Part shown: positions 41,880 to 42,887 of the stretch, one piece after another
Position numbering within the stretch: position 1 is the first letter of the stretch
How the letters are laid out: the number at the start of each line of letters is the position of its first letter
Virus record (IMG/VR): IMGVR_UViG_3300046000_008568
Coordinates: 30,501 to 94,500 of that record
Source of the DNA: a virus
Strand: one strand, 5' to 3'
DNA length: 64,000 bases
The notes under the pieces: model-generated
The model's database searches: none
Told to the model about the DNA's origin: nothing
The model's input: the letters and a program-made list of their open reading frames with translations, nothing else
Position numbers and translations under genes: made by a program

Positions 41880-41910
41880 TAGGATATTAAAAAATAAGTT
41901 CGTATATTTA
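41880..41910 (+). promoter_or_regulatory. Class I promoter TAGG-N19-TATATTTA
   Basis: TAGG 41880-41883 (one mismatch to TTGG) and TATATTTA 41903-41910, 25 bp before the small lipoprotein gene. Confidence 0.55.
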
Positions 41911-41935
41911 AGTATAGAAATTAATAAAAACAAAA

Positions 41936-42097
41936 ATGAAAAAAGTATTTTTAACATTAGCCTTAGTGGCTTTAGTGGCAGTAAGTTGTAACAAGGTGAC
42001 TCCGTCATCTAAATTAACAACAGTAGATTCAACAAAAGTACAAGTCGATTCAGTAAGTATTGACTCAACTTCAATTGATACTACAGCTGTAAAATAA
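41936..42097 (+). CDS. Small secreted lipoprotein
   Basis: 53 aa. A textbook lipoprotein signal: MKKVFLTLALVALVAVSC, with the lipobox VAVS-Cys at residues 15-18. The mature ~35 residues are Ser/Thr/Asp/Val-rich and unstructured. It should be lipid-anchored in the outer or inner membrane. Small phage lipoproteins often block superinfection by masking a receptor (for example T5 Llp); a spanin part is less likely because it lies far from the lysis genes. It has its own class I promoter and precedes the RNA block. Confidence 0.7.
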   Translation: MKKVFLTLALVALVAVSCNKVTPSSKLTTVDSTKVQVDSVSIDSTSIDTTAVK

Positions 42098-42480
42098 AAC
42101 ACACCCCAGTAGATAGGTCCGCCAAGAAAGTCTTTAAACAACGTGGGAACTGCGGCTCTCCCAATGTGGCTGGAATGTTTTATAAAATAGTCACCCTACT
42201 CTTATAATAAGGGAATCAGTGTAGATAAACAATGCACGATTATAGGAAAGAGGGTGCTAAAAAATTACCAATGCTCGCTGTTAATTGAGAAGTAGAGTGT
42301 ATTAATTTCCGAACAAGGGTTTATAGTAGGAAGGCGTCACTTATTGCACTCAATCAGAAACCCTGAAAGACCAAGGTTGGTAAAAAAAGAATCGGTTAGT
42401 GTCAACGGGAAAGTTCCTGCTAGGGTTAACATGGACGATAAGTCTGGATGAGGGTTCGAATCCCTCACCGATTCCAAAAT
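42098..42480 (+). ncRNA. Structured non-coding segment upstream of the tmRNA
   Basis: About 380 bp with no ORF, and visibly less AT-rich than its flanks. Several stable helices can be drawn: ACGTGGGA with TCCCAATGT (42141-42167), CCCT with AGGG near 42193-42212, GCAC with GTGC near 42235-42258, and AGGGTTT (42316-42322) with AAACCCT (42358-42364). The 3' end is a tRNA-like element. It matches no RNA family I can name; large phage RNAs such as GOLLD and ROOL also lie beside tRNA genes, but similarity is not claimed. Confidence 0.4.
42389..42475 (+). tRNA. tRNA-like element with perfect acceptor and T arms but no normal D/anticodon arms
   Basis: GAATCGGT (42389-42396) pairs fully with ACCGATTC (42467-42474), and the T arm is perfect: GAGGG-TTCGAAT-CCCTC (42450-42466) placed directly against the acceptor strand. 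The 8-bp stem resembles the G-1:C73 pair of tRNA-His. The 51 nt between (42399-42449) fit a class II tRNA in length but give a CGGGA-AAGT-TCCTG hairpin and a GGAC-GATAA-GTCT hairpin, with no recognisable anticodon. It could be a degenerate tRNA or the closing domain of the larger RNA. Confidence 0.4.
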
Positions 42481-42502: not shown

Positions 42503-42859
42503 GGGGGTGCCTGGTTTTGACAGATTACAACTAATTAATACAATCAGCCAGAGAGATAACTGTAAACTAAGGTGAATTTAATTAAATGGCAAAAACACAA
42601 ACGGTGTAGTATCTCAAGGAGACAACGCACAAATCGAAGCTAACATGAACACAGTATTCTCTTTATTGAGAAACGAAGTATTGGCAGCAGCCTAAATTAC
42701 CCAAGATTTCTCTATTAGATTAAATAGAGTGGTGGTTTCGCTAACTTAACAGTTGGCCCCAGTTGAATGATACTCCAACTTTAAAACCGTATCAAATAAG
42801 CTGTATAAATTGTATTGACTAACGCAGTCTGGACGGGAGTTCGAATCTCCCCACCTCCA
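42503..42859 (+). ncRNA. ssrA: tmRNA (one-piece), phage-encoded
   Basis: Begins GGGGGTGCCTGGTTTTGACA, whose GGGGGTG pairs with CACCTCC (42852-42858; one G-U). The T arm is GGGAG-TTCGAAT-CTCCC. Helix 2 forms between AATACAAT (about 42537-42544) and ATTGTATT (about 42806-42813). CCA is not encoded (ACTA follows). The tag frame ends GCA GCA GCC TAA at 42693-42695; the likely tag, from the GCT at 42639, is ANMNTVFSLLRNEVLAAA (18 residues), ending in the Ala-Ala degradation signal. It rescues stalled ribosomes with host SmpB. Confidence 0.93.
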
Positions 42860-42887
42860 CTAATTTTTTAACTCTAAATTAATCGTT

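Follow-up and report, generated by a model that had tools for sequence, protein, structure and literature searches.

The DNA considered here, 64,000 nucleotides long and referred to throughout as the window, corresponds to bases 30501-94500 of the 165,861-bp virus record IMGVR_UViG_3300046000_008568, from a phage related to Flavobacterium phage immuto. Within it, a noncoding block (42098-42480) lies between a small lipoprotein-like open reading frame (ORF), with its stop at 42097, and a transfer-messenger RNA (tmRNA) gene at 42503-42862. The block consists of four conserved modules in the order B, C, A and TLS, the last being a tRNA-like structure without an anticodon arm, and stands upstream of the tmRNA. 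Module A probably represents a genuine phage RNA, widespread and so far unclassified, and in this phage it is immediately followed by the TLS.

No plausible ORF falls in the block in the list of open reading frames, and its GC content is 41% versus 32.7% for the window, a richness equalled by only 3.4% of 383-nt windows; an earlier note, made from the letters alone, had rightly described it as ORF-less, less AT-rich than its flanks and holding several helices. The folding energy of the whole block is that of shuffled sequences (z = 0.06) and gives no evidence of structure, so structure must be argued from comparison, and its main support is covariation across dozens of homologues. The same note had suggested several checks. 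Covariance models gave nothing above the Rfam threshold (best hit tRNA-Sec, 20.2 bits, E 0.38), GOLLD and ROOL included, neither of which matches the block at E <= 10; ARAGORN reported no tRNA in the block; and comparison with relatives revealed compensatory changes in the TLS acceptor and T stem and in module A. The tmRNA model RF00023 does not match the block, although it does match the neighbouring gene.

The modular architecture emerged from two 17-18-nt motifs of the block, which recur at a spacing of about 80-140 nt, each in about 50 IMG/VR contigs; module boundaries were read from the sequence up- and downstream of these motifs in homologous loci. Contig counts are inflated by many identical copies, and the first set of module A comprises 38 distinct sequences from 61 places. 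The order of elements differs by phage: lipoprotein-A-TLS in immuto, B-A-TLS-tmRNA in L103 and B-C-A-TLS-tmRNA in the window, while module A stands alone in many phages. A single large RNA is ruled out, as each of B, C and A is also found where the others are missing, and their order varies. The earlier suggestion of a new large phage RNA with a tRNA-like tail therefore survives for the new noncoding region and its anticodon-less tail, but not for one large molecule; the composite make-up of the block and the tmRNA immediately downstream had been overlooked. Module A and the TLS occupy the following positions.

42265..42383, + strand: module A, with P1 (TTACCAA/TTGGTAA) around an H-type pseudoknot made of S1 (ATTGAG/CTCAAT) and S2 (AGGGTTT/AAACCCT), and invariant unpaired nucleotides
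42384..42388, + strand: A-rich linker from module A to the TLS, with a predicted RNase P site at its 3' end
42389..42474, + strand: TLS, from G-1 to C73, anticodon arm missing
42389..42396, + strand: TLS acceptor 5' strand GAATCGGT, which pairs with ACCGATTC at 42467-42474
42399..42432, + strand: TLS D-arm region, stem GTGT/ACAT, GG in the loop, with an optional inserted hairpin at 42406-42419 (CGGGA AAGT TCCTG)
42432..42446, + strand: hairpin at the anticodon-arm position (TGGAC GATAA GTCTG), 5-nt loop
42450..42466, + strand: TLS T arm (GAGGG TTCGAAT CCCTC)

The helices P1, S1 and S2 of module A covary in the 38 sequences, with both sides changed in 10 of 20 pairs, a level reached by 0 of 500 shuffles. 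By inspection, S1 takes the forms GGTACG/CGTACC, GTGAC/GTCAC and GTTGAAC/GTTCAAC, among others, and S2 is either AGGGTTT/AAACCCT or AGGGTTA/TAACCCT. Because S1 and S2 interleave, they form an H-type pseudoknot inside P1. Exactly one copy of module A is present in each of the 20 phage genomes tested, and in 18 of these the TLS lies directly 3' of it, with no other site at a comparable score. Ordinary tRNA arrays may be about 40 kb from the A-TLS pair, as in G000. The immuto annotation places a minus-strand coding sequence, immuto26A_31, over module A (L001 6296-6496); it is probably no gene.

The TLS has the parts expected of a tRNA, namely a 7-bp acceptor, a D arm with GG and a T arm with a TTCRA loop, together with an eighth pair, G-1:C73, as in tRNA-His. 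The perfect acceptor and T arms and the G-1:C73-like pair that the earlier note had recognised are thus confirmed, with an acceptor of 8 bp, as are the two hairpins it had drawn in the middle 51 nt. Twenty-four homologues have in common the 8-bp acceptor, a 4-bp D stem whose 3' strand is preceded by a mostly-GG motif in the D loop, and a T arm of standard form. Across them, 99% of the cells of the acceptor helix are paired and four of its pairs have changed on both sides; acceptor and T stem taken together show double compensatory changes in 8 pairs and 33 cells (0 of 500 shuffles as high). The G-1:C73 pair is kept in 22 of the 24 while other acceptor pairs vary, and C73 is rare, occurring in 12 of 207 scored tRNA calls at these loci, almost all of them TLS or His. 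The folding energy of the TLS (z = -2.0) is suggestive only.

Four sequences have a D loop of 7-9 nt; in the others it reaches 24-29 nt, the surplus being a hairpin. Reading this hairpin as the anticodon arm of a class II tRNA, or as a displaced variable arm, is ruled out, as homologues without it keep a normal 7-9-nt D loop. The hairpin at the anticodon position usually has a loop of 3-6 nt and of variable sequence (GATAA, CTGGT, TTCTAT); some examples, judged by eye, need a stem mismatch (GAAA, AATT and AATA loops), and one homologue has a 7-nt loop with U33 missing. No anticodon arm with a 5-bp stem, a 7-nt loop, U33 and a consistent anticodon was found among the homologues, most TLS calls being without T33. 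When ARAGORN reports TLS homologues, it gives seven clashing anticodons (agg, cag, tag, tat, aaa, ctc and 'at'), and for the TLS of the window neither ARAGORN nor the Rfam tRNA model calls a tRNA. The phages mostly have full tRNA sets, with up to 31 tRNA hits (21 RF00005 hits in G000), so that the TLS is not needed for decoding.

Could the TLS simply be a decaying or misannotated tRNA, and module A a functionless passenger of mosaic recombination? Against the Rfam tRNA model, a minimal homologue in L046 reaches 42.2 bits, which implies that the TLS derives from a tRNA, and modules are clearly exchanged between phages. Decay is nevertheless highly improbable: compensatory changes run throughout both the TLS and module A, the loops of module A are invariant across phages of three host phyla, and each genome holds one copy of A with no array of broken variants. 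The decayed class II tRNA of the earlier note founders on the compensatory changes of acceptor and T stem over the 24 sequences and on the first hairpin being an optional D-loop insertion. Because acceptor and T stem covary, the comparison indicates a TLS that is maintained, not decayed.

Other tRNA-like genes of these phages depart from the canonical form. The 'tRNA-Cys' of the immuto annotation (L001 6411-6496) is in fact the anticodon-less TLS. Loci L007, L033, L035 and L013 carry more noncanonical genes, among them a 'tRNA-Pro' (TCGTTCTTGGTAG...) with 5-nt loops GTGGA or GCGGA and U33 missing, and AGTCAGG-type class II-like elements. Some phage tRNA-His (gtg) calls in L007, L102 and L046 have A73, not C73, and mismatched acceptor pairs; others have a normal G-1:C73.

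What would such a structure be for? The TLS may serve only as a processing signal, or it may accept histidine or draw off defences that target tRNAs. Histidylation via G-1:C73 is a fair prediction, as the bacterial histidyl-tRNA synthetase (HisRS) charges minihelices carrying that pair (PMC9976931). As an anti-defence decoy, the TLS would attract nucleases or modifying toxins that hit tRNA acceptor ends or elbows, and its missing anticodon loop would make it immune to anticodon nucleases. The TLS preserves exactly the acceptor and the elbow; moreover, phage tRNAs with altered anticodon loops have been proposed to evade host anticodon nucleases (PMC10264068) and defences that cut tRNA tails exist (PMC12851939). 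By analogy, then, a decoy can be conceived, but we regard it as rather improbable.

A restriction of module A to flavophages is ruled out by homologues in phages of other hosts. Its short form matched noncoding DNA in phages of Klebsiella, Proteus, Pectobacterium, Erwinia, Escherichia and Providencia, as well as of Morganella, Vibrio, Pseudomonas, Rhizobium, Bacillus and Cellulophaga; weak matches (E near 1 or above) were kept only after a model match. In one early pattern search many matches were chance occurrences in coding sequence, and the matches of another were only partly inspected. Among T4-like, T5-like, Vequintavirinae and jumbo phages, whose hosts are Enterobacterales, Vibrio and Pseudomonas, the homologues are placed within tRNA clusters or close to them. 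The sequences align column by column through GCTNTTA, GAANAAGGGTTNANAGT and AGNAACCCNGAAANAC. The sequence of P1 is wholly different between phages (AAAGCAAC/GTTGCTTT, CTTGTC/GACAAG, TGTGCACC/GGTGCACA) and yet it pairs fully (100%, shuffles 57%) in nine Enterobacterales phages; for S1 the figure is 95.7% in fourteen phages, with 56% in shuffles (in both cases 0 of 5000 as high). A model built from the aligned sequences, some of which it therefore matches by construction, recognises 19 of the 20 isolate-phage loci in L176-L196 other than T4, L196 being the one left unmatched; in T4 it finds no match.

At several of these loci the boundaries of module A coincide with tRNA genes. In phage mogra it begins 3 nt after a tRNA-Met and ends 6 nt before a tRNA-Arg, and in Hena1 it lies 5 and 13 nt from the neighbouring tRNA genes; two Proteus phages have it 4 nt before a tRNA-Ile, while in RaK2 and KpGranit it follows a tRNA by 5 nt. 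Two further arrangements stand out. In Klebsiella phage VLCpiM5b, a group I intron (RF00028, 69.8 bits; L178 2358-2662) separates two DNA-polymerase ORFs and has A in place of its P6 loop, possibly an allosteric or a hitch-hiking arrangement. Bacillus phage Eldridge carries a circularly permuted A, in which an ATTA loop closes P1 and the first core motif is at the 3' end (L181 1480-1620). The permutation and the intron insertion together indicate that A is an autonomous fold. That A might be a group I intron core was also considered and is ruled out; it is an insertion in P6 at the one locus examined.

A pseudoknotted core with many invariant unpaired nucleotides, found also in naturally permuted form as are hammerhead and twister (PMC10085705), might suggest a self-cleaving ribozyme. 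We consider this quite unlikely from the sequences: no Rfam ribozyme family matches A, self-cleavage would cut the otherwise complete-looking intron of VLCpiM5b, and the coincidence with tRNA genes means that tRNA enzymes can already make the ends.

Among the bacterial genomes searched, module A is all but missing. When 84,980 species genomes of bacteria and archaea were scanned with one exact pattern, three matches came up, of which one is true, on a short contig of a Sphingobacteriales metagenome-assembled genome (MAG), and the remaining two are chance (L096, L097). With stricter filters, the model found only this same MAG among 396 Bacteroidota genomes and nothing among 399 genomes of the Nitrosospira phylum, the latter run being made without a positive control; 20,395 E. 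coli records had no match to A. Likewise, no Rfam family matches A at any locus searched, all hits being to tRNA, tmRNA or group I intron models, or else weak, below threshold and elsewhere. The open-access literature searched yielded no description of A, which is weak evidence, an earlier description being possible.

The account that we hold, with slightly better than even confidence, is an array of separate RNA modules. The block would form part of a transcribed array (B, C, A, TLS and tmRNA) at the head of the phage RNA and tRNA region, with transcription presumably driven by a phage promoter-like sequence upstream. The TLS would be a tRNA-derived domain that keeps the parts read by tRNA-processing enzymes (acceptor, elbow and T arm) and has given up decoding. 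Cleavage by RNase P at G-1 of the TLS, which is plausible, or of a neighbouring tRNA elsewhere, would set the 3' end of A; the freed TLS would perhaps be histidylated through G-1:C73; and the mature A would act in trans by binding a protein, an RNA or a ligand during the takeover of translation, this last step being the least certain. Module A itself is best read as a small phage RNA, compact, stable and present once per genome, whose core is a conserved pseudoknot and whose ends are set by tRNA processing. The foundations of this reading (the structures, their covariation, the single copy, the tight linkage of A and TLS, and the broad distribution of A in phage tRNA clusters or their vicinity) come from sequence comparison.

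Three points weigh against parts of this account. For 18 of 49 distinct sequences downstream of A, a strict test accepted no directly following tRNA-like element, several of them carrying divergent ones, so the TLS is not always the 3' signal of A. The TLS variants of L005 and L060 carry T-1/T73, for which the usual rule predicts no histidylation, and HisRS also uses the anticodon in vivo (PMC9976931).

Alternatively, A and TLS could work as one RNA, a 5' pseudoknot domain with a 3' tRNA mimic comparable to the 3' ends of plant tobamovirus RNAs, that protects or regulates the upstream transcript or docks on a synthetase or EF-Tu. Their immediate adjacency in 18 of 20 genomes, though other modules shuffle, would fit this idea, as would the retained histidine-type G-1:C73 pair and the frequent abutment of A on the lipoprotein stop codon. 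However, the gene upstream of A is something else at many loci, A sometimes precedes other elements within the flavophage set, and in phages of other hosts ordinary tRNAs flank A and a TLS1-type partner is missing. We therefore think a joint A-TLS molecule unlikely, if less so than the decoy or the ribozyme, and retain the array of separate modules.

A structured phage RNA near tRNAs is in itself a known kind. The closest parallels are RNA C (species 1 RNA) and RNA D (species 2 RNA) of T4, noncoding and stable RNAs in a phage tRNA cluster. In the predicted fold of RNA C (L182 1409-1547), the acceptor ACGGAACG/CGTTTCGT has 8 bp, the T arm is canonical and a long hairpin ends in a 6-nt loop. As modelled, the 3' end of RNA C is a tRNA mimic without an anticodon arm, like the TLS, whose model aligns to the 3' end of rnaC at 14.2 bits (E 0.39, non-significant). 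Module A differs: the 5' part of RNA C is not A, and T4 is without A. Like the tRNA-like domain of tmRNA, which adjoins it here, the TLS has acceptor, D and T arms and misses the anticodon arm, but it contains neither a reading frame nor a P2 helix and no G3:U70; module A as a part of tmRNA is ruled out, lying outside the acceptor.

In MALAT1, a noncoding RNA, the 3' tRNA-like element mascRNA sets the 3' end through RNase P. The A-TLS pair would have the same tRNA-punctuation arrangement, its processing being predicted, although MALAT1/mascRNA is eukaryotic and unrelated. The 3' ends of plant tobamovirus RNAs have pseudoknots neighbouring a tRNA-like structure. Histidine-accepting structures of the tobamovirus type are, like the TLS, tRNA mimics with a histidine-type -1:73 pair (PMC9976931); the TLS is unlike them in having a genuine cloverleaf-type acceptor and T arm, with an acceptor that is not pseudoknotted, in showing no anticodon mimic and in belonging to a DNA phage. 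GOLLD and ROOL are structured phage RNAs near tRNA islands, and GOLLD may contain tRNAs (PMC12286853). Module A shares their habitat, but it is about 70-170 nt long and not several hundred, folds as a single P1-enclosed pseudoknot and has no Rfam match. It is assigned to none of T4 RNA C or RNA D, GOLLD or ROOL. New to the sources searched are the fold of A and the range of its hosts, its occurrence in permuted form and within an intron, and the combination in the TLS of a histidine-type end with the lack of an anticodon arm.

The remaining features of the locus are as follows.

41896..41917, + strand: promoter-like sequence AAGTTCGTATATTTAAGTATAG, predicted from sequence, upstream of the lipoprotein and the RNA modules
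41936..42097, + strand: small lipoprotein-like ORF of 53 aa, ending with its stop codon directly before the RNA modules; the immuto relative is annotated YcfL
42098..42182, + strand: module B, conserved noncoding element with outer stem CCAG/CTGG, hairpin GGGA/TCCC and loop pairing CCGC/GCGG
42188..42261, + strand: module C, conserved noncoding element, ACCCTACTCTTAT ... AAAGAGGGTGCTAAA with an inner hairpin that varies
42503..42862, + strand: phage tmRNA of the same RNA island (RF00023, 77.9 bits, E 1.6e-28), missed by ARAGORN

A 35-nt stretch covering the promoter-like sequence recurs at G000:113646-113680, and in L006, L059 and L099 a near-identical sequence stands directly 5' of module B, the lipoprotein gene missing there. 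The core pattern of module B occurs in 71 IMG/VR contigs, some over 300 kb. By inspection and with no statistical score, its outer stem changes on both sides (CTAG/CTAG, TCGG/CCGA), as does the loop pairing (CCGC/GCGG to CTGC/GCAG). Module B, also present at L112 3038-3165, counts as a second conserved RNA that is unclassified, and its pseudoknot pairing is probable. The pattern of module C occurs in 31 IMG/VR contigs, 373-kb ones among them, mostly with no module A nearby, and B and C alike often sit in loci where A is not close. The hairpin element of module C (CTACGTGACCCTACTCTTAT...ATAAGAAAGAGGGTGCTAAA) is found at L161 1403-1480 as well, with a similar element in Cellulophaga phage phi14:2, and a further recurrent noncoding module (GGCTAAACATTGAACCTTTGTAAA ... 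TTGTTCCCTTGAGAAAGGAA ... CAACACAAATGAGTTCTCAGCAAGT) follows module A in L098, L010 and L056. One frame of the tmRNA, read by eye, ends in ...RNEVLAAA-stop and would encode an unusually long tag of about 35 aa; L039 has a similar frame start. At L054 6123-6387, in a presumed Bacteroidota phage, a permuted tmRNA match (RF04321, 57.8 bits) lies near A and TLS.

Taken at its broadest, with chances that we judge evenly balanced, module A would represent an unclassified class of functional RNA found in phages of three host phyla (Bacteroidota, Pseudomonadota and Bacillota), where tRNA operons encode it as a gene of tRNA size and where permuted and intron-built forms exist; in flavophages it would be coupled to an anticodon-less, possibly histidylated tRNA mimic. 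Its natural circular permutation and intron insertion make it attractive for structure determination. The anticodon-less TLS also reopens an old puzzle, that of T4 RNA C, an RNA for which we are aware of no function. It has long been asked why phages have clusters of tRNA genes. That A lies inside such clusters in T4-like, T5-like, Vequintavirinae, jumbo and flavobacterial phages, some of which grow on E. coli K-12, suggests that the clusters house non-decoding RNA functions.
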